DNA from: Sulfurospirillum oryzae
GTDB lineage: Bacteria > Campylobacterota > Campylobacteria > Campylobacterales > Sulfurospirillaceae
Assembly (NCBI RefSeq): GCF_025770725.1
Contig: NZ_JANZKZ010000003.1
Coordinates: forward strand, 1 to 64,000
DNA: 64,000 nucleotides
Direction: 5' to 3'
The position numbers and the translations under genes are program-made. Below, one piece after another: positions 51,229 to 64,000 of the stretch. Below the pieces are notes generated by a model that ran no database searches, had not been told where the DNA came from, and worked only from the letters and a program-made list of their open reading frames with translations. The first letter of the stretch is position 1, and each line of letters begins with the position of its first letter.

Positions 51229-51255
51229 TAAAGTTTTTTTAGAAGACTCCGATCT
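51229..51255 (+). promoter_or_regulatory. Sigma-28 (FliA) promoter of the flagellin gene
   Basis: TAAA (51229-51232), 15 bases, then TCCGATCT (51248-51255), matching the FliA consensus TAAA-N15-GCCGATAA at most positions. It lies about 55 bases before the flagellin start. Confidence 0.65.
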
Positions 51256-51310
51256 TGTTTTCATCAAAGGCAAGGATGCCTGCGAAATACAAAAGATAAA
51301 AGGATTTATC

Positions 51311-53737
51311 ATGGGTTTCCGTATTAACACAAACGTTGCGTCACTTACTGCACAAACAAGTGCTGCAATCAACAACAGAAACTTGGACAATTCACTCTCT
51401 AAATTGTCCTCAGGTCTTCGTATCAACAAAGCAGCAGATGATGCTTCAGGTCTTGCAATTGCAAACTCTCTTCGTGCGCAAGCAAGTTCACTTGGTCAAG
51501 CTATCTCTAATGGTAACGATGCGATCGGTTTGATCCAGACTGCCGATGGTGCGCTTAGCGAGTACTCAAACATTCTTGATACTATCAAGACTAAATCTGT
51601 ACAAGCAGCATCTGATGGTCAAAATGCTACTTCTCGTTTGGCAATTCAAAAAGACATCAACCGTCTACTTGAGAACTTGAACAATATTGCTAAAACAACA
51701 TCGTTCAACGGTCAAAAACTACTTTCTGGTACATTTACCAATAAAGAGTTCCAAGTTGGTGCAAATGCAAATGAGACAATTAAAACTTCTATCGCTTCTG
51801 CTGAGACAAGCCAAATTGGTCAAACAAGCCGTACTACATTAAGTGTTGCACAGCTTGGAGAAAACAAATTAACACTAAAAAGTGCTCTTAGCGGTACTGA
51901 AATCGCTCTAGAGTCTGTTAATTTGCAAATGAACAATGATCCTGCTAATGGTATGGGTGCGCTTGCAGATATTATTAACAAACACAGTGCTGAAACAGGT
52001 ATTACTGCAAAAGCAGTTGTTTCAACAACGACTAAATCTGCAATTGCTGCTGGAACAACAGGAACTGACTTTGCTATCAATGGTGTCAATATTGGTGCTA
52101 TCAATGTTACAGCAAATGACAGCCAATCAACATTGTTAACTGCAATTAACAACAAAGCAACTGAGACAGGTGTTACTGCAACCAAAACAGCTGATGGTAA
52201 AATTACATTAGCAACAAGTGATGGTCGTGCTATCAGTGTTACAGGTGATGTTGCTGGCGTTATGGGCAGTTCTGCAGATGAGATGACTACAATTGGTCAC
52301 CTTGAAGTTGTTCAAGCTGGTTCTTCAACATTCCAAATCACTGGTTCACCTATGGGTACAGCGGTTGGTGAAGATATGACTATAACTGGTACTATGACAG
52401 CAGTTCAAGATTCAACAATTGCTGTAGGAAGTACTATTATTTCTGACAGTGTACTTGCTGCTGGTAGCAAACTTGGTATGGCTATTACTGCAACTGTTGC
52501 AATGGAATCTGCATCATCAACTAAAGATGGTACATTAACCGTTGGTTCTGTTATTGGTTCAGGTGCTAAATTAGAGCACGGTACAACTCTTGGAACAACT
52601 ATTACAACAAGAGCAACTACAACTCTTACTGCTGATATGCTTGTTAAAGCAGGTTCAACGCTTGGTGTTGGTACTGTATTTGATGCAGGTACTGTACTCC
52701 AACAAGACCTCTCTGTTTCTGGTGTTTCTTATAAAGCAGGAACAACATTAACTGTTGACGTAACATTGGCTACAGCAACTACCTTGTCAAAAGATATGAT
52801 TATTACCATTGATAAACAAAACCAAAATGCTGCAATCGGTGCTTCTAGTACACTTGTAGCAGGTACTGTTCTTGGTGAAGATCTTGTAACAACTGGCTCT
52901 GCAACCGTTGCAACAGAGATGGTTGTTAAAGCAGGTACATCACTTGTATCAGGATCAACTATCGCTGCTGGTAGTATCATGGGTGATAACATTACTGTAA
53001 GTGGTGATAGAACTACAACAGAACAGACTGACCTAAAAGTGGGCTCAACTCTTGGTAGTGGATCAATTCTTAAAGAGAATTCAACTATTGGTGGTCAAAT
53101 CCAACTTCGTGCAGCTGTTACACTTAACCAAGATACCGTTATCAAAGCAGGTTCCGTTCTTAATACTGGTACTGTTCTTAAAGCAGGTACTGTTATTAAC
53201 CAAGATATGACAGATGCTCAAGTCGGTGGTGGTGCAGGTTCAGGATTAAAAGCAGGTACAGTTCTTGGAACTGATGTAACATTAACAGATCAAGTGTATG
53301 TAAGCAAAGATTTCAATATGATCAAAGGTACTTCTGGTACTAATGCATCTCTTGCAATTGGATCTAAACTTGCTGCAAATGGTGGCGGTCAAAATAGCGT
53401 CGAATTGGGAACAACAGAATTCTCAAATCTATCTAAAATTGATGTTACAACACTTGATGGCGCTATGAAAGCAATTGATACTGTAAGTGCTGCGATGACA
53501 AACCTTGATACTATTCGTTCAGATTTAGGTTCTGTTCAAAATCAAATCACTTCAACAATCAATAACATCTCTGTAACTCAAGTAAACGTTAAGAGTGCTG
53601 AGTCTGGTATTCGTGATGTTGACTTTGCTGCAGAATCAGCTAACTTTTCTAAATTTAACATTCTTGCTCAGTCAGGAAGTTATGCAATGAGTCAAGCTAA
53701 CTCTGTTCAACAAAACGTACTTAAACTACTTCAGTAG
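51311..53737 (+). CDS. Flagellin with large repetitive central insert
   Basis: An 808-residue flagellin. The D0/D1 ends are canonical: MGFRINTNVASLTAQ to about residue 175, and NLDTIRSDLGSVQNQ to VLKLLQ at the end. Residues about 185-315 are flagellin hook-IN-like. Residues about 355-690 form an extra region of imperfect repeats rich in xxG(S/T)(V/T)L hexads. Campylobacter flagellins are about 570-580 residues, so roughly 230 are extra. It is secreted by the flagellar type III system and forms the filament; Ser/Thr richness fits heavy glycosylation by the adjacent Maf and sugar genes. AAAAGGA precedes the ATG. Confidence 0.95.
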   Translation: MGFRINTNVASLTAQTSAAINNRNLDNSLSKLSSGLRINKAADDASGLAIANSLRAQASSLGQAISNGNDAIGLIQTADGALSEYSNILDTIKTKSVQAASDGQNATSRLAIQKDINRLLENLNNIAKTTSFNGQKLLSGTFTNKEFQVGANANETIKTSIASAETSQIGQTSRTTLSVAQLGENKLTLKSALSGTEIALESVNLQMNNDPANGMGALADIINKHSAETGITAKAVVSTTTKSAIAAGTTGTDFAINGVNIGAINVTANDSQSTLLTAINNKATETGVTATKTADGKITLATSDGRAISVTGDVAGVMGSSADEMTTIGHLEVVQAGSSTFQITGSPMGTAVGEDMTITGTMTAVQDSTIAVGSTIISDSVLAAGSKLGMAITATVAMESASSTKDGTLTVGSVIGSGAKLEHGTTLGTTITTRATTTLTADMLVKAGSTLGVGTVFDAGTVLQQDLSVSGVSYKAGTTLTVDVTLATATTLSKDMIITIDKQNQNAAIGASSTLVAGTVLGEDLVTTGSATVATEMVVKAGTSLVSGSTIAAGSIMGDNITVSGDRTTTEQTDLKVGSTLGSGSILKENSTIGGQIQLRAAVTLNQDTVIKAGSVLNTGTVLKAGTVINQDMTDAQVGGGAGSGLKAGTVLGTDVTLTDQVYVSKDFNMIKGTSGTNASLAIGSKLAANGGGQNSVELGTTEFSNLSKIDVTTLDGAMKAIDTVSAAMTNLDTIRSDLGSVQNQITSTINNISVTQVNVKSAESGIRDVDFAAESANFSKFNILAQSGSYAMSQANSVQQNVLKLLQ
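52373..53380 (+). repeat. Coding repeats in the flagellin insert (about 31-residue units)
   Basis: Imperfect units such as DMLVKAGSTLGVGTVF (442-457), EMVVKAGTSLVSGSTI (536-551), TDLKVGSTLGSGSIL (573-587) and DTVIKAGSVLNTGTVL (608-623) recur, each continued by an AGT(V/I)(L/I)xxD(M/L/N) stretch. Within a unit the period is six: large aliphatic at one position, Ser/Thr four later. This resembles beta-solenoid hexapeptide patterns. Confidence 0.75.
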
Positions 53738-53826: not shown

Positions 53827-55821
53827 TTACTTCAAATAACTTTCAAGCTTTGAAATATACACCTGCGACATTTTTAAAAGTTGTCTTACTAGCAGAGCAT
53901 CAATATTTGTGACATGCTTATTGAGGTTAGGAAGATCTTTTGTATTGAAAAGATCGAAGATATAACTCATAACAATAGAAAAATATTCATAGTAAACTTG
54001 TGCCAGGTCTGAGCGAGTTTTATACTCCATATCACTTAAATCCCATGAGAGCTTTGCAAGCGTTTGTAGATAAGCATCTGCATGAGCAAATTTTTTCTTT
54101 TGGTGCTGTTTAATAATTTTTTCAAGCTTTTTTGCTTCTTTGATTTGGTAAGCGATTTGACCTTTGTCGCCTTCATTAAAATCGTCAGAGCCTATACTTT
54201 TGAAAAACTTCTCTATACCTTCTCGTAGATAGTCTCTATCAAGCACAGGGAGTGCTTTCCAATCATAATCACCAAAACGAAGTGGATCACATCCTTCCAA
54301 ATAAGCACCATTACTGAGATTATGGACATGATGATATTCACGCTTAAGCATTTCCGTAAAAATAGCAACTTGCTCAATCGATATCTTATAAGCAGAGAGA
54401 GTAGGAATGGTTTCGCATAGGTTACCTTTCACATACGTGATAGAGGCATTTGGGTCAAGTGATGCGCTGTGCTCGTTATGTTCACCAGTGACTTGGAATG
54501 GGTGAAAGTCACCGTGTGATTGCATCGTATCAGGATTAAGGGCTAAATCTACCCCTAGCATAAAGATCTCGGTTGCTCCCATAATGAGGAATAGACCATA
54601 CGTATATTCGCCTACACTAGGTGCTGAGAATCTTCCAAACCCTTTTTTATAAAATGTTCCTTGTTCTATAAAATGAACGTGATTGCGATCAAATCTTTGA
54701 AGTGTTGCTTCATCAACATTGGAGGCTAGAAGGATTGTTGAGTTTTTGAAATAATCAGAGTCTAAATCTTCAAAAAGTAAGGAGGTGTTTTCGCCTGGAT
54801 CAATATGGATAATAATATCTGGCGTGATACCAAAGCGTTTCAGCAATCGGCACGTTGAAAGTGCAGAGACGATGATGAAACGATCACGATTTTCCACAAC
54901 CCAATCAATATTTTTAGACGTTGATGGACCTGAAAAAAGAAGCAGTACAGGTTTGTTAGTAAAGATATTGTCGGTATAGACTTTATTCACATTTAAAAAA
55001 GAGTAGCCACGCGCTAAATAGCGAGGTGAGCTGACAAAACGAAACAACATAGCACTGTATCCATAGTTTATGTAACTTTGAGAAAGAACATGTGATTGGA
55101 GACGCTGAAGTTCTAGTTGATAATCTGTTGTAAATGGTATGTGTTTCAAATGGAGATTATAGTTATTGCCTCTATTTAAAAATTCTAAAAAGTTTTCTCT
55201 CTCTTCATTGTCATCATCGGTGAGCGAAAAGTGGAGAAAACGACCTTGTGCAAGCTCTGCATAATCCGTCACAAATAAAGAGAGGCGAAAAGTTTCAAGA
55301 TTTTTTTCTTTGATGAAAATAACTTGAGGGTTGAGCTTTTCGGCTATTTTTAAAAGATGCAATCCTAAGCCTATGCCTAAAAAGATAATTTTATGAACAC
55401 GATTCATAAAAGTTTCAGGGGTGGCATATTTGCTGACATAATTAATGATTTTAATCGTTCCCCAAAGTGAATTGTGGAAAGCGAGCTCGCTTTTATCAAT
55501 GCGATCGGCTTGCTCCTCGGATGCAAAAACATATTTTTGTGCTTTAAAAACAGCTCCTGTACGCTTGAAATCAATAGCATCAACCATACGCTTGGCTGCT
55601 TCAAGGCTGTTGCTTTTATACAAAAATTCATTGCTAGAAAGTTCTAAAATATCAAAATAGCCTTCTTCTTTGTACTCTAGGGCATAATGCTCACTATAGT
55701 GTCCCTCATCAATGAGTTGGTTGAGCAGTGAGATTTTTTCAAAAATAGGTTTATGATTTTCTTCGAGAAATTTCAAGTTTTTATTAAATGTATTGAGTGC
55801 ATTCGTTGTAATATCATTCAT
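53827..55821 (-). CDS. Motility-associated factor Maf, flagellin glycosyltransferase (DUF115)
   Basis: A 664-residue cytoplasmic protein of the Maf family: the central MAF_flag10/DUF115 domain holds LLFSGPSTSKNIDWV and GITPDIIIHIDPGENTS, and helical regions lie on both sides. Maf proteins transfer CMP-activated nonulosonic acids to flagellin Ser/Thr. Placement back-to-back with the flagellin and at the head of sugar genes supports this. The sugar is not known from sequence. Confidence 0.9.
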   Translation of the reverse strand: MNDITTNALNTFNKNLKFLEENHKPIFEKISLLNQLIDEGHYSEHYALEYKEEGYFDILELSSNEFLYKSNSLEAAKRMVDAIDFKRTGAVFKAQKYVFASEEQADRIDKSELAFHNSLWGTIKIINYVSKYATPETFMNRVHKIIFLGIGLGLHLLKIAEKLNPQVIFIKEKNLETFRLSLFVTDYAELAQGRFLHFSLTDDDNEERENFLEFLNRGNNYNLHLKHIPFTTDYQLELQRLQSHVLSQSYINYGYSAMLFRFVSSPRYLARGYSFLNVNKVYTDNIFTNKPVLLLFSGPSTSKNIDWVVENRDRFIIVSALSTCRLLKRFGITPDIIIHIDPGENTSLLFEDLDSDYFKNSTILLASNVDEATLQRFDRNHVHFIEQGTFYKKGFGRFSAPSVGEYTYGLFLIMGATEIFMLGVDLALNPDTMQSHGDFHPFQVTGEHNEHSASLDPNASITYVKGNLCETIPTLSAYKISIEQVAIFTEMLKREYHHVHNLSNGAYLEGCDPLRFGDYDWKALPVLDRDYLREGIEKFFKSIGSDDFNEGDKGQIAYQIKEAKKLEKIIKQHQKKKFAHADAYLQTLAKLSWDLSDMEYKTRSDLAQVYYEYFSIVMSYIFDLFNTKDLPNLNKHVTNIDALLVRQLLKMSQVYISKLESYLK

Positions 55822-55830
55822 GAGTGCTCC

Positions 55831-56583
55831 TTATAGTAGTCTAACAGGGTAGTGATGGTGAGAAAGTTCTTCTTTGATCATTTGGGGTGTGTATTGTGTA
55901 AAGTGGAAAATAAAGGCTGCTGCGAGTGCATCTGCCCCATTTTGTAAAGCTTCGACACCATGTTCAGGCTTGCCCATACCGCCATTGATGATAATAGGAA
56001 TATGCAGTGTATTGGCAAAGAGTTTTAAAAGCTCAGTATCATAGCCCAGTGTTGTTCCTTCTTGGTCAATGGAAGTGAGCAAAATCTCTCCAGCACCCTG
56101 CGCTTCGTACTCTTTGGCAAGTTCAATCGGGTCGATGTCAAGTAACCCCTCTTTTTTAGTGAAGACTCTGTACTTTCCATCCACTTTTTTAATGTCGATA
56201 GAGCAAACAACACATTGCGAGCCAAAAATGGTGGCGATCTCTTTGATGAATGAAGGTCGTTTAATCGCTTCAGAGTTGATAGAAACTTTGTCAGCTCCAG
56301 CTCCTAATACGGTATAGACATCTTCTATCGTTTTGATACCGCCACCGATGGTAAGGGGCATAAAGCACTCATTGGCCATATCGGTGATGATCTCGGTATT
56401 GATAGGTTCATTGTTTAAACTCGCATCAATATCTAAAACAATGAGTTCATCAACATTACGAGCATTGTAAACGCGCACAGTTGCGGTAGGATGACCGATG
56501 GTCCGAAAAGAACCAAACTGGATACTTTTAACGAGTTGCCAGTCTTTGAGTAGTACACAAGGAATAAGGCGATGTTTTAGCAT
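55831..56583 (-). CDS. HisF-like cyclase paralog for sugar acetamidino synthesis
   Basis: A 250-residue HisF-type barrel ([36 protein letters not shown]). Together with HisH and PseA it lies in the same order as Cj1314-Cj1315-Cj1316 of Campylobacter jejuni and wbpG-hisH2-hisF2 of Pseudomonas. There these deliver glutamine-derived ammonia to make acetamidino sugars. Hence a glycan role is preferred over histidine synthesis. Overlaps hisH. Confidence 0.82.
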
Positions 56584-57209
56584 AGCGATTCCTTGGTTAA
56601 GTTTGCAAAGTTTTTGATAATTTGAAGTCCGTGCGTTTGACTTTTTTCAGGATGAAATTGGGTTGCAAAGATATTCTCTTTTTGGATGGCACAGACAAAA
56701 GAGTGACCATAGTCACAATAGCCTATGGCATACGTTGAAGGTGCTTCAAAATAGTAAGAGTGTACAAAGTAAAAGTTGCTATGGTCGGGAATATTTTTAA
56801 ATAAAACGCTCGGATTGTGAAAGTTCATCTCATTCCAGCCTACATGAGGAATTTTTAAAGAGCTTTCTTCAAAGCGTACAACTTTCGCATCTTCTATCCA
56901 GCCTAGTCCTTGGTGCTCGCCAAATTCATAGCTTTCTTCAGCAATGAGTTGCATGCCAAGACAGATACCTAAAAAGAGTTTTTTATGCTCAAGTATCTCT
57001 ACATGTAAAAGGTCACTCAAGCCCAAACTATTGAGGTTTTTCATCGCATCCCCAAAAGCTCCGACACCGGGTAAAACGATGTGAGTAGCTTCTTTAATGA
57101 GGGCATGGTCACGAGTAATGGTAGCGGTGAAGCCTACTTTTTCAAAGGCTTTTTGCACCGAACGAAGATTTCCCATACCATAATCAATAATGACGATGTT
57201 AGCGGACAA
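56577..57209 (-). CDS. HisH-like glutamine amidotransferase subunit for sugar acetamidino synthesis
   Basis: A 210-residue class I glutamine amidotransferase with [10 protein letters not shown] (nucleophile Cys) and TQFHPEKSQ (His-Glu). It frees ammonia from glutamine for its HisF-like partner, overlapping at the next gene, and for PseA upstream, which it also overlaps. Genomic position points to nonulosonic-acid amidination, not histidine. Confidence 0.85.
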
Positions 57210-58335
57210 TGTATTCCTCTTTTCGTACCAATGAACCGTCTATATCTTTGATAAATTTGCCATTGGCATCTCTTTGGAAGATTTTTTTATTGGTAAACGA
57301 GTCTACGATAGCGTCAAATTCCTCGCGTGTAAAGCCTGTGTATTTTAAAAATTCATTGATCGCTTTCATTGGAGGAATGCCATCGTATTTAGTCACCAAA
57401 CGCACGGCTTGTTCACGGCTAATATAGCCTAAACGAACGTCTAAACAAGCATTGTCACTGGCTCTACCAAAACCGTATTTGACGTATTTGAGGTAGTCAT
57501 GGACATGGTTACTGTAGCAATCTAGGTTTTCAAAATTTTCATAGGTGGTTTCAACACGTCTGTCTGAAACGCTAAAACCGCTTTTTTGAGCACTGCTTAA
57601 AATCTTTCGTAAATCCCACTTGATGTAATAGCCCAAGAAAAGCCCTGTAACGCCCACTCTTTGAACATCTTCATCTTCTGGGTAGAAGTAGAGTGCCAAA
57701 TCTTTCTCGCTAATGCCGTCCACGCCAAGCATGTCAGTCGCACGGTTCCCCAAAAGTCCACCAAACTCTTCAAGCCATTTACGATCTAAGCAGGCATTGT
57801 CTTTACTCGCCGCGGGTCCACCGTATTCGAGTTCAGAGTTTTCACCCCAAATGAGAAGAGGAATGTTAAAGTTGACCGCAATGTGCGCAGGGGTGGTAAA
57901 AATGCCCAAATGGTTTGGCCACTCACAATCTCCCACACGTTTGATCGCCTCTTTGATCATCGATTTATAGATTTTAGGATTGCGTTTAATGTGAATCAAA
58001 TCGACACCCAATTGGTTGAGGTTTGCAAGATTTTGACGACCCACTTCGGTAGGAATGGTCGGCTCAAAACAGACACACAGTGGGTTAAGTCCCATCTCAA
58101 GGACACTCAGCACTTGGAAAGTAGAGTCTTTTCCTCCGCTGACACCGATGATGCAGTCGTAGTATTTGTTTTTTTTATGCTTTTTGACGACCTCTAAAAA
58201 CTCTTGTTTGCGAGCTTCCCAGTCAATATCAAAATCTTTAGCCTTTTGTGACCTGCACGCATCACAGACACCATGCTCATCAAAATGCAAATCAGGTTTC
58301 GTGTCAGGCATCACACATTTGGTACAAAATCTCAT
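57199..58335 (-). CDS. pseA: N-acetyl sugar amidotransferase (PseA/WbpG family)
   Basis: A 378-residue protein with the PP-loop GVSGGKDSTF, an N-terminal zinc-like site (CTKCVMPDTKP, CDAC) and SELEYGGPAASKDN. The family activates an N-acetyl sugar with ATP and replaces oxygen by an amide from HisH/HisF, giving acetamidino-pseudaminic or -legionaminic acid. It overlaps its neighbours at both ends, forming one translation unit. Confidence 0.88.
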   Translation of the reverse strand: MRFCTKCVMPDTKPDLHFDEHGVCDACRSQKAKDFDIDWEARKQEFLEVVKKHKKNKYYDCIIGVSGGKDSTFQVLSVLEMGLNPLCVCFEPTIPTEVGRQNLANLNQLGVDLIHIKRNPKIYKSMIKEAIKRVGDCEWPNHLGIFTTPAHIAVNFNIPLLIWGENSELEYGGPAASKDNACLDRKWLEEFGGLLGNRATDMLGVDGISEKDLALYFYPEDEDVQRVGVTGLFLGYYIKWDLRKILSSAQKSGFSVSDRRVETTYENFENLDCYSNHVHDYLKYVKYGFGRASDNACLDVRLGYISREQAVRLVTKYDGIPPMKAINEFLKYTGFTREEFDAIVDSFTNKKIFQRDANGKFIKDIDGSLVRKEEYIVR

Positions 58336-59291
58336 CCTTTTTTCCTTAGAACCAGTTGCATTTTATAGCCCATTTTTTGGTCATGCAACCATTTTTCATC
58401 CAGACCTCCAAGGAAAGTTTTGGTGTTGGTGCTGTTGCCAAAATACGGGTCATCGTAATTCAGATAGTTATTCATAACGCCAATTTCGCCGATGACGGTC
58501 TCGCAACTTTCGATTTCAAAACCACATTTTAAAGCTAGTTTTTCAATTGATTTGTAAGAGTACAAGTTGACATGTTCTATACCGTCGTACATGTTGCATT
58601 TTTCTCGAAGCATTTTAGCCGCAAGTGAGTCGGAGCTTGGAATTTGTAAAAAGACGACACCTTTTTCACTTAACAGTGCTTTCATGTCTTTGAGATAGAC
58701 TTCGCCGTCTTTTAGGTGTTCAAAAACATCCCATAAGCAAATGGCTTCTAAAGGTGCTTCAAAAGTGACTTCATTAAGGAATTTATTGTAAATGGTATGA
58801 CCTTTGGCAGTGGCATACGATGCTTCTCGCTCGTTGAGTTCCACGCCAAATGTTTTCCAACCAGCTTCTTTGGCAAGGTCTAAAAAGATACCCGCGGAAC
58901 AGCCAATATCAAGGATATTTCCCTTCGGTGCAACACGCTCTATGGCGCGCAGCCCTTTGCTGTAAATGTTAGTGTAAAAATCCCCATCATTGGCAACAAT
59001 TTCACTTTGCAAGTCATGGTTGGTGCGGTAGTACTTCTCTAAATTTTCATCTTTAAACACAGGATTGAGATAGACAATATCACACTCGGTACATTTCACA
59101 TAGCGCCCACCGTCTTTGAAAAATAAAAATTGTTCATGGTTGGTTTTACATGTAGGGCATGGTCGATCTTCCAAAAGGTTTTCATAAAAAGAGCCCGTTT
59201 TTGGGTCAAAGTATTGCACACGGTTTGCGACATTGGCATTGTGCATTTTGAGGCGTTCTTCGTGTATTTCTTTAGGTGCTCTTGAACTCAT
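58332..59291 (-). CDS. SAM-dependent methyltransferase with N-terminal zinc ribbon
   Basis: A 319-residue protein: CPTC and CTEC form a zinc ribbon at residues about 43-72, then a class I methyltransferase domain with NILDIGCSAGIFLDLAKE and AICLWDVFEHLKDG. Related proteins methylate sugars in surface-glycan loci. Its overlap with pseA makes a modified nonulosonic acid likely; the exact position methylated is unknown. Confidence 0.85.
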   Translation of the reverse strand: MSSRAPKEIHEERLKMHNANVANRVQYFDPKTGSFYENLLEDRPCPTCKTNHEQFLFFKDGGRYVKCTECDIVYLNPVFKDENLEKYYRTNHDLQSEIVANDGDFYTNIYSKGLRAIERVAPKGNILDIGCSAGIFLDLAKEAGWKTFGVELNEREASYATAKGHTIYNKFLNEVTFEAPLEAICLWDVFEHLKDGEVYLKDMKALLSEKGVVFLQIPSSDSLAAKMLREKCNMYDGIEHVNLYSYKSIEKLALKCGFEIESCETVIGEIGVMNNYLNYDDPYFGNSTNTKTFLGGLDEKWLHDQKMGYKMQLVLRKKG

Positions 59292-59857
59292 GAGTGTTTC
59301 TCCGATTGGTGTTTTTTTGCGTTAAATTCATCTTTGAGGATACTAAAACGAACGGTGTTATGGTAGGTTCCCTCTTTGTAAACTTCATCTCTAAAAATGC
59401 CTTCTTGTAGCATTCCCACAGAAAGGGCTAGACGTTGCATGGCTGTGTTGGAAACCATTGTTCCGCAACAGATGCGGTGCAAGTTCATTGTATTGAAACC
59501 ATGGTCGAGAAGTAGCATGGATGCTTCTTTGGAAATGCCTTTGCCGTGGAAATTTTTATTGCCGATAAGAATGGAAAATTCTGCACTGCGGTGCAACGAT
59601 GAGATGGCAAGCAGGGTAATGTTACCGATATGTGTGTTGCTTTGTTTGTCCACAATCGCAAGCATAATACGGTCATTTTGAGAAGAGAGTTGTTCAATGT
59701 ACTGAATGGCTTGGGCTTTAGTGTAGGGAAAAACATGATGTTCACTGTACTGGCACACTTCTTCATCGTTTAACCAACTCGGATAATCACCTTGTGCATC
59801 TTCAACATTTAACCCACGAAGATAGATGTTTTTACCAATTAAAAAAGGATTAGTCAC
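59288..59857 (-). CDS. GNAT acetyltransferase (RimJ-like) of the glycan locus
   Basis: A 189-residue RimJ/RimL-type GNAT with SILIGNKNFHGKGISKEASM (acetyl-CoA loop) and LHRICCGTMVSNTAMQRLAL. In this locus it may N-acetylate an amino-sugar precursor, the role PseH or LegH plays, although it is more RimJ-like than PseH. It overlaps the methyltransferase gene by 4 bases. Confidence 0.8.
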   Translation of the reverse strand: MTNPFLIGKNIYLRGLNVEDAQGDYPSWLNDEEVCQYSEHHVFPYTKAQAIQYIEQLSSQNDRIMLAIVDKQSNTHIGNITLLAISSLHRSAEFSILIGNKNFHGKGISKEASMLLLDHGFNTMNLHRICCGTMVSNTAMQRLALSVGMLQEGIFRDEVYKEGTYHNTVRFSILKDEFNAKKHQSEKHS

Positions 59858-59890
59858 ACGGAACCTCCGCCAAAGTTTAGTTTTTTCATT

Positions 59891-61192
59891 TTACTTTAAT
59901 TCCTCTTTGTTTTCCCATACTTTCGCAAACGCTCTTACTACATCGTCCATATCTTCTCTGCTCATTCCTGGGCGCATAAGTTCATGGGTAAAAAGACGTT
60001 CAAAATGCAGACTCTCACACACGGGGCAGTCGCCTTTTTGGTACGTTACATTGGAGAGGTTAAATGGATAGCCTTTGCTGCCAAACGCAATTTTGTGCGC
60101 AAAAAGTGGTTGCAGATAAATCGGTTTCACATACCCGCATCCCATCAAAACATCAGAGTCATCGCGCATGATGGTTCGAGGTAGTTCGGCTTTGACCGCT
60201 TTGATGAAAACATCACGGTGGATACCAGCAAGGCTTGCGTCAAACTCTAAAGGATGCACGTAAAAAGCATGTTTGACATGTTTGCGTGTTGTGGTTGTTT
60301 TAAGGCAAGGAATGCTTTTAAGCGCCTCGTTGATGTAGGCGACATTTTCTTGACGTGTTTGAAGTAAAGAGGGGAGTTTTTTGAGCTGTTCACGCGCCAC
60401 CGCACACTCCATCTCTGTCATACGAAAGTTAAAGCCGACCATGTTGACAAGCTCGCTTGGTGCGCTAAAGCCTTTATTGGCGATGACCGATTCGGCGTGG
60501 TTGCGGATGAGTTGGAGTTTATTCGCCAGTGCGTCATCATTGGTGACGATAACACCGCCTTCACCTGAGTGGATATGCTTGTGGTAATTGAGTGAAAAAA
60601 CACCCATATCGCCCAATGTTCCGGCAAATTCGTTTTTATACATCGCACCTGGTGCTTGAGCGGCATCTTCGATAACGATGAGGTTATGTTTTTTAGCAAG
60701 TGCGTTGATGGCTTCTACGTCATAAGGTTGTCCAAAAATATCCACTACGATGATGGCTTTGGTTTTTGGAGTGATTTTTTGCTCGACACTTTTTGGGTCT
60801 AAACAATAGGTGTCTTTTTCAACATCGGCAAATACGGGAATACCGCCGTAAAAAAGCGGAGCAACGGCTGAGGCGGACATGGTGTAGGGGCTCACGATGA
60901 CTTCATCACCCGCTTCGATCCCAGCGGCTCCTACAGCGCAAATAAGTCCCGAAGTAGCGGAGTTGACACTGATGGCATGTTTGACACCAAAAAACTCAGC
61001 CCACTCTTTCTCAAAAGCACGTACTTCACTTCCACCGTAAAAATCCTCATGCCAAGCGCCAAGGTAGGTGGAGAGTTTCCCACTGCGAAGTACGCGTAAT
61101 ACGGCTTCTTCTTCCTCTGCCCCTATGGTGTTGTAAGCGGGGAAAGGTTTGGATCTTACCTTTTCTGCGCCGTTGATGGCTAATTTTTTCAT
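59891..61192 (-). CDS. DegT/DnrJ/EryC1-family sugar aminotransferase
   Basis: A 433-residue PLP enzyme: Lys205 in SLNYHKHIHSGEGG should bind PLP, with Asp176 in IEDAAQA. The family transaminates keto-sugars in nonulosonic-acid and other glycan pathways (PseC and LegC are relatives). The C-terminal part is longer than usual and contains DCPVCESLHFE. It overlaps the Gfo/Idh/MocA gene by 4 bases, so the two probably act in sequence: oxidation, then amination. Confidence 0.88.
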   Translation of the reverse strand: MKKLAINGAEKVRSKPFPAYNTIGAEEEEAVLRVLRSGKLSTYLGAWHEDFYGGSEVRAFEKEWAEFFGVKHAISVNSATSGLICAVGAAGIEAGDEVIVSPYTMSASAVAPLFYGGIPVFADVEKDTYCLDPKSVEQKITPKTKAIIVVDIFGQPYDVEAINALAKKHNLIVIEDAAQAPGAMYKNEFAGTLGDMGVFSLNYHKHIHSGEGGVIVTNDDALANKLQLIRNHAESVIANKGFSAPSELVNMVGFNFRMTEMECAVAREQLKKLPSLLQTRQENVAYINEALKSIPCLKTTTTRKHVKHAFYVHPLEFDASLAGIHRDVFIKAVKAELPRTIMRDDSDVLMGCGYVKPIYLQPLFAHKIAFGSKGYPFNLSNVTYQKGDCPVCESLHFERLFTHELMRPGMSREDMDDVVRAFAKVWENKEELK

Positions 61193-62151
61193 TTTTGTTT
61201 CTCTTTTGCAATGGTTTCAAAAATTTTCGCATGAACATTGATCTGTTCTTGCAAGATCTGTTTGCAGGTTATATCGTCGTTTTGGAGTAAAAATTCAAGG
61301 GAATGCAGGGCATAGTCTTTTAATGTATTGGGGAGGGTTTCTTCGTGTTCCAAACTAAAATAGCCTTCGTACAAAGGTGAGGGTACTTTGATAAACGACT
61401 CAATGTGAGAGCCTCCCTCTTTGATCTCTAGCTTGCCATTTTCAAACCAGATGGTAAGTTCAAATGCCGAATAAGGAAGATCTTCCATGCAACTTAGCAC
61501 GCCCCTAGCATCTTTACATGTCACCTCAAAATCGCCACCGATGTCTTCGTGTAAACGTTTTACATGTAACGATTTAAGACTCTGTATTTCACCAAAAAAG
61601 TGACTCAAAACGGCTAGCATGTGTACGCCATTGTGCAGTAATCCTTTGGTGAAAATGCCTTGAAAGCGCATGGCTTTGCCCCATTTTTGTGCGGCAATGT
61701 CATTGGCAAGTTTGATAAAAGAGGGGTCATACCGTCTCATCAGATGAATCAGGATTTTTTTCTCGCTCGAAAGAAGTAAAGGCGCTAGGTGGGCTAATTC
61801 TTGAGCGGTTGCAACCAACGGTTTTTCGCAGATAATGGCTTGCAAACTTTTTACATGTAAAGCCTCTTCCAATGCATTTGCATGAAATTGTGTGGGCGAG
61901 GCAATAGCGAGCAGGTCGATGGTTTCATACTGCAAAAGAGCATCCAGTGAGTGGTAAACTCCCATTTTCCCCCAACGCCCGATAAACGCACTTTGATTTG
62001 CACTGTTAGGTTCGCAAATAGCGACAAGTTTGCAATTTGGATGCTTCAAAAAGGCATGGGCATGTGAGGCAATGTTCGCACTATGAGGCGAGTCGATCAA
62101 ACCGCCGATGCTTCCTGCTCCAACAATGGCACATGAAAGAGATTTTTGCAT
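61189..62151 (-). CDS. Gfo/Idh/MocA-family sugar oxidoreductase
   Basis: A 320-residue NAD(P)-dependent protein with Rossmann loop VGAGSIGGLID and the signature CEKPLVA. It would oxidise or reduce a sugar nucleotide, plausibly feeding the aminotransferase that overlaps it. Its start overlaps the preceding stop (TAATG). Two exact palindromes lie inside, both encoding Leu-His-Val-Lys. Confidence 0.85.
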   Translation of the reverse strand: MQKSLSCAIVGAGSIGGLIDSPHSANIASHAHAFLKHPNCKLVAICEPNSANQSAFIGRWGKMGVYHSLDALLQYETIDLLAIASPTQFHANALEEALHVKSLQAIICEKPLVATAQELAHLAPLLLSSEKKILIHLMRRYDPSFIKLANDIAAQKWGKAMRFQGIFTKGLLHNGVHMLAVLSHFFGEIQSLKSLHVKRLHEDIGGDFEVTCKDARGVLSCMEDLPYSAFELTIWFENGKLEIKEGGSHIESFIKVPSPLYEGYFSLEHEETLPNTLKDYALHSLEFLLQNDDITCKQILQEQINVHAKIFETIAKEKQK

Positions 62152-63146
62152 TAATGTCCTAGCTGTTTTTCTAAGAATAAAGCAAAATCCATACCGAAAT
62201 CTTCGGGATTTTGAGAAATTTTCTCCAGCTGATTAAGATGAAAATGCTCAAAAGTGGTGAGTTGGTTTGCTTTAGGCAAAGGAACACAGCATTCTCTTTT
62301 GGTTGAGGGGATGTAAGAGAGGACGTATTTTCCGAGCAGATAAGCAGTATAAAGTGCTACGGTATCGATACCAATGACCACTTTGGCACGGGCGATGTCC
62401 TCTAAAAGCGTGGTGTGGCTAAACGTAGCGCTTGGATCAATCGCTTGGTAGCATTCGGGTGTATCGGAGGGGTGAAGGCGAATTAAAATGTTTTTACAAC
62501 CAAATTTCTTTTTACATGTAAGAATATCTTCAAAGACCTCTTTCTCGGTAAACCCCCAACCATAGGCATTTCCAAAGGAGCGTTTTGCCACTTTGGCGGT
62601 GGGTTCACTTAGAAAGAGTAGAGTGTCACTCTCTTGCGTACTGGCTAAAATATTTTGAGCCTCTTTAAGTTGAGCCATCAAGGCATAATTTTTGATAGCG
62701 ATAACGTTAGGAAGCCCTAAGGCTTTGGCTTTATCGAAACTTGTTGGATCGTGCGCTGCGATGAAAGAGGGGAGATTGTTCTCCCAATTTTTTTCGGGAT
62801 ATCCGAAGCGTTCGCGGTAGTTTGTCCAGTGGTCTAAAAAAGCGATGCTCGGAATGGTGTGCGCTTTGGCATAGTGTAAAAAGTGGTACTCAAGGTGGTT
62901 TTGCCAGCCTGTACCATAGAGGATGATGGAGGGGGCAAAAAAAGCAAGTTTGGCTTCTATATCGCTTCTTTCAGGCGTTATTTCACACCAAAAGTGCTCC
63001 AATTTTTTGGTTTTGATGAGGGTGTAACACGGCGACTCGATTAAAGAGAAGATGCAAAATTCACCTACATGTAAAGAGGCGTTGAGAAGCTCTAAAAGTA
63101 TTTCAGCCCCTCCCGCGTCGTGGGCAAAAAGAGCGATTTTTCTCAC
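62151..63146 (-). CDS. Unknown protein of the nonulosonic-acid locus, GT-B-like
   Basis: About 331 residues from a GTG that overlaps the neuB-like stop (GTGA), with AAGGAAG seven bases upstream; a TTG at 63164 is an alternative. The N-terminus RKIALFAHDAGGAEILLELL, the IRLHPSDTPE segment and the late VVIGIDTVALYTAYLLGK recall UDP-sugar epimerase/PseG/glycosyltransferase GT-B folds, but no specific family is clear to me. Its position implies a role in making or moving the flagellar sugar. Confidence 0.7.
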   Translation of the reverse strand: MRKIALFAHDAGGAEILLELLNASLHVGEFCIFSLIESPCYTLIKTKKLEHFWCEITPERSDIEAKLAFFAPSIILYGTGWQNHLEYHFLHYAKAHTIPSIAFLDHWTNYRERFGYPEKNWENNLPSFIAAHDPTSFDKAKALGLPNVIAIKNYALMAQLKEAQNILASTQESDTLLFLSEPTAKVAKRSFGNAYGWGFTEKEVFEDILTCKKKFGCKNILIRLHPSDTPECYQAIDPSATFSHTTLLEDIARAKVVIGIDTVALYTAYLLGKYVLSYIPSTKRECCVPLPKANQLTTFEHFHLNQLEKISQNPEDFGMDFALFLEKQLGH

Positions 63147-64000
63147 TCGAAATCTTCCTTGCAAAGTCTCTCTCCAAAGCTCAAATTTTCTTTGGCACGT
63201 TTGCCTAAAACATCTTTGAGGAATCGTGGATGGAGTCCATACCCTGGGCGAATAGAGCGGATATTTTCTTCGCTCAAAACTTCCCCTTTGGCAATATCTT
63301 TGGCGATATAAAGGCTGCGTGCAAATTGTCTGCCTTTAATCGTTTTTACATCGGTGTTGTAGGTGGGTTTTCCTAGCAATTTTTCGGCCTCACGTACGGC
63401 TTGAACCATTGCGGTAAAGGCCTCAACATCGAGTGAAAAACTTGCATCCGCGCCACCGATGGCTTTGTCTAAAATGAAATGCTTTTCGATGACTTTAGCG
63501 CCCAGTGCCACGGCGGTAATCGGTGCGGTGATGCCTAACGTGTGGTCTGAAAAACCAGCAATAACGCCAAAACGTTTGGCAAGATCGGGTATGGTAAGGA
63601 GGTTTGCGCCCTCAAGTGGGGCAGGGTAAGATGAGGTGCATTGCAATAAAATAATATCAGAGTTATCTTCCCTTTGGCAAATGCGCACAACATCTTCAAT
63701 TTCATTAAGTGTAGCAATGCCCGTGGAGATAATCATAGGTCTTTGTTTGGACGCCATATAGCGAACGAGTTCGTAGTCCGTGATTTCAAAACTGGCTACT
63801 TTATAAGCTGGCGGGTCAAATTGCTCTAAAAAATCCACAGCGCTTTTGTCAAACGGTGTCGAAAAACAGAGGAGTCCTTCTTCTTTAGCGCATGCAAAAA
63901 GCTCTGCGTGCCACTCCCACGGTGTGTAGGCTTCTTTGTAGAGTTCATAGAGTGTTTTATTATCCCAAAGCGTGCCGCCTTTGACGACGAAATCCTCTTT
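63143..64000 (-). CDS. NeuB-family nonulosonic acid synthase (5' end outside window)
   Basis: The frame is open from the window edge to a TGA at 63143-63145; 285 residues are visible, covering most of the TIM-barrel domain (FSTPFDKSAVDFLEQF, YKVASFEITDYELVRY, QCTSSYPAPLEG, GFSDHTLGI, KVIEKHFILDK) and the C-terminal SAF domain (RSLYIAKDIAKGEVLSEENI). It condenses phosphoenolpyruvate with a 6-carbon N-acetyl sugar. PseI (pseudaminic) or LegI (legionaminic) cannot be told apart here. Confidence 0.9.
   Translation of the reverse strand, partial: KEDFVVKGGTLWDNKTLYELYKEAYTPWEWHAELFACAKEEGLLCFSTPFDKSAVDFLEQFDPPAYKVASFEITDYELVRYMASKQRPMIISTGIATLNEIEDVVRICQREDNSDIILLQCTSSYPAPLEGANLLTIPDLAKRFGVIAGFSDHTLGITAPITAVALGAKVIEKHFILDKAIGGADASFSLDVEAFTAMVQAVREAEKLLGKPTYNTDVKTIKGRQFARSLYIAKDIAKGEVLSEENIRSIRPGYGLHPRFLKDVLGKRAKENLSFGERLCKEDFE

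Follow-up and report, generated by a model that had tools for sequence, protein, structure and literature searches.

Flagellins are already known to vary in their outer domains, and E. coli O157:H7, EPEC H6, Achromobacter and Sinorhizobium have wholly different outer domains on a shared core (PMC8931119). The flagellin of H. pylori bears Pse on D2/D3 (PMC12880188), and genomic islands for flagellin glycosylation, carrying Maf and Pse genes, are described in two further reports (PMC5109656, PMC13317340). Here, we analysed a flagellin gene of Sulfurospirillum oryzae in a window of 64,000 nucleotides (the whole stretch of DNA under study), whose product carries an outer domain made of hexapeptide repeats. 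We found no full-text description, within a partial coverage of the literature, of a flagellin with a left-handed beta-helix (LbH), a beta-helix, a beta-solenoid or a hexapeptide repeat.

The original prediction that the gene encodes a flagellin was borne out by matches to Flagellin_N and Flagellin_C, one at each end of the protein and both above the Pfam cut-offs. In a search of its own genome, this protein was the lone strong match and the single full-length flagellin found; the search also returned a 249-aa flagellin-N-like ORF. Residues 1 to ~345 and 709–808 could be aligned with C. jejuni FlaA (6X80) and the H. pylori flagellins, with the repeats lying between these two segments; the sequence comparison with the PDB revealed that the D1/D2 region (residues 145–345) is homologous to the Campylobacter and Helicobacter flagellins. 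The repeat domain is located within the variable outer part of the protein, as had been proposed. The features of the locus are listed in Table 1.

Table 1. Features of the flagellin locus, with positions in the window and the evidence for each.
Feature	Position	Strand	Evidence
Putative sigma-28-like promoter (TTAAAGTTTTTT...CCGATCTT) and conserved 5' leader with GGCAAGGATGCC	51235-51310	+	16 genus loci aligned
Flagellin gene, 808 aa	51311-53737	+	Pfam Flagellin_N 5-143, E 4e-45; Flagellin_C 722-807, E 7e-30
N-terminal D0/D1 helical core, residues 1-144	51311-51742	+	Pfam Flagellin_N; full-length-model helices 2-101, 106-129
D1/D2 region, residues 145-345	51743-52345	+	Flagellin_IN 253-303; alignment to C. 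jejuni FlaA 6X80
Hexad-repeat outer domain, residues 350-695, 52 hexads	52358-53395	+	Hexad score; Hexapep PF00132; PDB profile matches; domain model
Half 1, residues 355-527	52373-52891	+	Half-HMM match; hhalign against half 2
Half 2, residues 524-698	52880-53404	+	Half-HMM match 524-698
C-terminal D1/D0 core, residues 711-808	53441-53734	+	Flagellin_C; full-length-model helices 715-807
Maf-type flagellin glycosyltransferase, convergent	53827-55821	-	Pfam Maf_flag10_N E 3e-16, MptE-like E 2e-25
HisF/WbuZ-like, HisH-like and WbuX (N-acetyl sugar amidotransferase), nonulosonate amidination	55831-58335	-	NCBIfam
Pseudaminate synthase PseI, continuing beyond the window	63143-64000	-	NCBIfam

Hexad repeats had been predicted at 52373–53380, which corresponds to residues 355–690 of the flagellin ORF (51311–53737, forward strand). 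Their presence was confirmed, with a true extent of residues 350–695: a hexad-chain score evaluated against 200 shuffles detected 52 hexads in residues ~345–695 (z = 11.7), arranged as tandem copies of the LbH motif [LIV]-[GAED]-X2-[STAV]-X, and one gap-free run (residues 509–634) comprised 21 of the 52. The hexad consensus, L-[GTAK]-A-[GD]-[ST]-[TV], is compatible with the LbH hexapeptide motif, and the Hexapep profile (PF00132) matched the protein with 28.2 bits, the cut-off being 27. The same score showed no repeat signal in the D1/D2 region (z = −0.6), nor in four short flagellins from sister species (z from −1.5 to 0.1). Peaks of the identity autocorrelation were observed at lags 6 (z = 5.0), 12 (z = 4.4) and 36 (z = 4.2), and the last of these places the higher-order period at ~36 residues instead of the ~31 that had been proposed. 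The anticipated spacing, an aliphatic residue every six positions with Ser/Thr four later, was recovered, since 19 of the 37 aliphatic residues in 509–634 fall in one of the six phases (binomial p ~1e-6, for the best phase chosen) and hexad position 5, four after the aliphatic residue, is Ser or Thr in 29 of 52. The description of the region as Ser/Thr-rich holds only in part; the content does exceed that of the rest of the protein (27% vs. 20–25%), but the enrichment is mild. The outer domain has no Cys and no Pro, and ~1% of its residues are aromatic.

Above the hexad level, the domain is composed of two tandem homologous halves of ~172 residues, each with 26 hexads. The comparison of residues 355–527 with residues 528–700 using hhalign gave a probability of 99.94 (E 3.9e-37, 161 columns, 39% identity), and an HMM of the half-domain produced exactly two significant matches in each complete member of 804–813 aa tested, including one from Desulfobulbus. 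Judging from these alignments, the outer domain evidently arose by the tandem duplication of a ~172-residue unit.

A check for relatives showed that the hexad domain is present in 13 of the 24 genus genomes, which have a long flagellin (804–813 aa), and also beyond the genus; most of the other genus genomes have a short flagellin, of 483–493 aa where the start was found. Among the Campylobacterota, the domain occurs in 14 of 397 sampled genomes, belonging to four genera and two families. It had been suggested that the repeat number varies between strains; however, all the complete relatives in this phylum, at one genome per species, have 802–813 residues and keep the two halves. The search for near-identical tandem repeats in the DNA detected only one weak 18-bp array. 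The carriers include S. cavolei, S. diekertiae, Sulfurimonas, a Desulfobulbus MAG and Desulfobacter latus, and the spread beyond Campylobacterota is known from three loci. The D. latus flagellin (L046:2820-6560) is 1247 aa long with ~774 residues of hexads (~122 hexads), and an MptE-like (Maf-type) ORF also adjoins it. Its repeat units belong to two classes, DST[IL]K.GS early and DMTLK.GS late. In two Sulfurimonas-type genomes (L032:1335-6380 and L033:1325-6371), there are two tandem near-identical copies of the 808-aa flagellin. A phage or plasmid origin was discarded, as no relative was found in viral contigs or in plasmids.

When the outer domain was compared with the PDB, 26 of 26 chains recovered at E up to 10 were LbH-type hexapeptide proteins; the reversed domain sequence gave zero matches, and a shuffled sequence matched a single unrelated chain. 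Because all the PDB matches are LbH and the reversed sequence finds none, the similarity to LbH proteins is, at the sequence level, specific and directional. A family-profile search of the PDB retrieved 12 sequences, all of them LbH, and in the S. oryzae genome the family profile matched, besides the flagellin, an LpxD-like ORF of 316 aa and a hexapeptide acetyltransferase-like ORF of 178 aa (both named by their sequence). The LbH_EIF2B profile matched 14 of 16 members and Hexapep matched 10 of 16, with the D. latus relative reaching 63.9 bits for Hexapep and 54.4 for LbH_EIF2B (cut-off 54). Covarying pairs separated by 16–21 residues, a range picked after looking, numbered 22 vs. 10 expected in an alignment of 23 sequences, which weakly favours ~18 residues per coil, the length of one turn in the three-sided, left-handed parallel coil of LbH proteins; the scan for antiparallel (antidiagonal) covariation gave no signal above noise. 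That the domain could be a hexapeptide acyl- or acetyltransferase, with its trimer, active-site His and CoA/acyl-ACP site, is unlikely because it is part of an exported flagellin.

The domain modelled alone with AlphaFold2 had a pLDDT of 85.8 and a pTM of 0.78, with 213 of 367 residues at or above 90 and strands of two to three residues at nearly every hexad; two of the five models were confident. Structure prediction had been proposed as a check, and it yielded a confident all-beta repeat, neither disordered nor an ordinary D2/D3 fold. For the whole protein, the pLDDT was 61, and residues 345–425 and 522–595 were below 50. A genuine LbH model normally retrieves LbH structures. With the domain model, Foldseek searches of the PDB and BFVD retrieved neither an LbH nor any other solenoid (best E 0.046, TM ~0.1), and VIA-align gave a best Z of 3.5, the jelly-roll and cupin rows being treated as noise. 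Other flagellin cryo-EM structures were rejected as matches to the fold, with Geovibrio 9au6 appearing at noise level only. The LbH-like hexads and the confident strand-per-hexad model make a beta-solenoid-like fold of the outer domain likely, although that model recovered no LbH structure that would indicate the type of solenoid.

LbH proper is the leading form of this fold, although unproven. A single straight helix is disfavoured, since its 17 coils would put the ends ~80 Å apart (at 4.8 Å per coil) and both ends of the domain must return to the common D1/D2 base. Both ends could be brought back to this base if the domain were built as two half-solenoids or in a two-stranded arrangement. 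The first could be a canonical LbH with halves of ~8.7 coils lying side by side and both ends at the filament. We regard this form of the preferred explanation as a reasonable but tentative possibility: the directional LbH sequence signal, the 18-residue covariation, the two equal halves and the strand at each hexad of the model agree with it, but the confident model found no LbH structure with either Foldseek or VIA-align. Hexad strands that are confident and yet have no match in the PDB, together with the duplication into halves and the requirement for nearby ends (in the full-length model, a linker of only ~15–20 residues separates the CD1 helix at 715 from the last hexad), would rather point to a new solenoid, in which halves of opposite direction are wound together or pack as a hexad helix of two strands that starts and finishes at the base. 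This seems rather unlikely to us, and the antidiagonal covariation expected from it was no better than noise. A bolder proposal, which we consider unlikely, is a solenoid class unseen in solved structures, with one of the duplicated 26-hexad halves ascending and the other descending in a two-stranded hexad beta-helix anchored by both ends on the filament; it would be extensible, as in the ~122 hexads of D. latus, would form a field of beta-helical spikes on the rotating filament, and would have moved between families with its own glycosyltransferase.

The domain could also be a largely extended low-complexity Ser/Thr/Gly spacer that acts only as a glycan scaffold, with the hexads reflecting compositional drift. 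Its Ser/Thr content, the absence of Cys and Pro, the few aromatic residues and the stretches of low pLDDT when the whole protein is modelled would fit such a spacer. However, the hexad register is kept at 40–90% identity in the 13 genus members, with small indels and invariant Gly/Asp/Leu positions, the length of the domain is constant, the pLDDT of the isolated domain is 86 and the LbH similarity is directional, so we judge a spacer to be very improbable.

As previously pointed out, glycosylation genes adjoin the flagellin gene, and these comprise Maf, WbuX/HisH/HisF and the Pse genes, linking a Maf and a nonulosonate pathway to the flagellin. PseH, PseG, PseF, PseC and PseB follow PseI outside the window, and all six exceeded the NCBIfam cut-offs (contig bases 63147–68332). 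It is likely that the outer domain serves as the acceptor surface for a pseudaminate-type sugar transferred by the adjacent Maf. Between WbuX and PseI (58332–63164), we observed genes for a methyltransferase, an acetyltransferase, a PseC-like aminotransferase, an oxidoreductase and an unassigned 337-aa ORF, which suggest a further modified nonulosonate. Past the pse genes, outside the window (L088:5354-6100, contig ~68.4 kb), there is the flagellin-N-like protein of 249 aa; Flagellin_N is its only match, and it is conserved at this position in the genus.

Within the genus, long and short flagellin genes occupy one shared slot beside topA, and the promoter and 5' leader are common to both (16 loci compared). 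The promoter role of TTAAAGTTTTTT...CCGATCTT is read from its consensus; together with the sole full-length copy, this sigma-28-like element suggests that the filament is built from the 808-aa flagellin. Between long and short species, the leader is near-identical over 51260–51312 of the window; GGCAAGGATGCC in this leader could fold into a hairpin whose loop is AAGGA, and AAAGGATTT is at the ribosome-binding site. Both elements look like the CsrA sites of Campylobacter flaA.

In the TopA tree, the ten species of one crown clade divide equally between the long and the short form. One Maf family lies after the long genes and another after the short genes; the match to PseD was 446 bits for the short-type Maf and 38 bits for that of the window. 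The Sulfurimonas flagellins nest within Sulfurospirillum, beside that of the window (support 100/99), and the identities between Sulfurimonas and the window are 79% for the flagellin, 75% for Maf, 86% for HisF and 88% for WbuX, but only 65% for TopA. Since these flagellins nest in Sulfurospirillum and the identities of the cassette exceed that of TopA, the simplest reading is that a flagellin–Maf–pseudaminate cassette was horizontally exchanged between Sulfurospirillum and Sulfurimonas, that is, across families. Next to topA, the flagellin, Maf and sugar genes appear to be exchanged together as a single surface cassette.

Taken as a whole, we think it probable that this locus encodes a filament flagellin with a fixed-size, tandem-duplicated, hexapeptide-repeat domain of beta-solenoid-like fold, likely glycosylated by Maf and carried in an exchangeable cassette beside topA. 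The identity of the flagellin, its hexads, their duplication, the spread of the family, the synteny and the transfer across families are directly shown by the data, and the type of fold, the glycosylation of this domain and its effect on the filament surface are inferred from them. The outer domain would be inserted between conserved D1/D2 strands; the flagellin would be exported unfolded and the domain would fold outside, most likely as a compact beta coil that stands out from the filament, to which the adjacent Maf would add a pseudaminate derivative. The domain may alter the surface properties of the filament. It probably serves either to vary this surface, for example as a defence against phages that bind the flagellum, or in the mechanics of the filament, two roles that the present data do not separate. 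If confirmed, this would be a beta-helix scaffold recruited as a surface module of the filament. It would also offer a natural test of how the shape of the outer domain and its cognate glycosylation change together, since sister species that hardly differ in TopA have exchanged one flagellin architecture for the other at a single locus, along with the corresponding Maf family.

Compared with known systems, the domain resembles the LbH hexapeptide proteins (LpxD, LpxA, QdtC, WxcM and eIF2B epsilon) in its hexad consensus and in its matches to the Hexapep and LbH profiles. In contrast, those proteins are cytoplasmic enzymes or factors, whereas this domain is exported, is part of a filament and has no transferase context; in addition, the structure searches did not match its predicted model to the LbH fold. 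The flagellins of C. jejuni (FlaA, 6X80) and H. pylori (FlaA/FlaB, 9YGU and 9YH1) share with it the D0/D1 core, the Flagellin_IN-bearing D2 and a nonulosonate (pseudaminate) glycosylation setting, but they have ~508–576 residues and lack the two-half hexad domain, with homology fading at ~345. A variable outer domain on a shared core is also found in the flagellins of E. coli O157:H7, EPEC H6, Achromobacter and Sinorhizobium; these have other folds, which dimerise into sheaths or screws, and hexads are not described there (PMC8931119). The locus is also similar to glycosylation islands in having the flagellin beside Maf and nonulosonate genes (PMC5109656, PMC13317340), and it differs in that the flagellin architecture is swapped together with the Maf subfamily.
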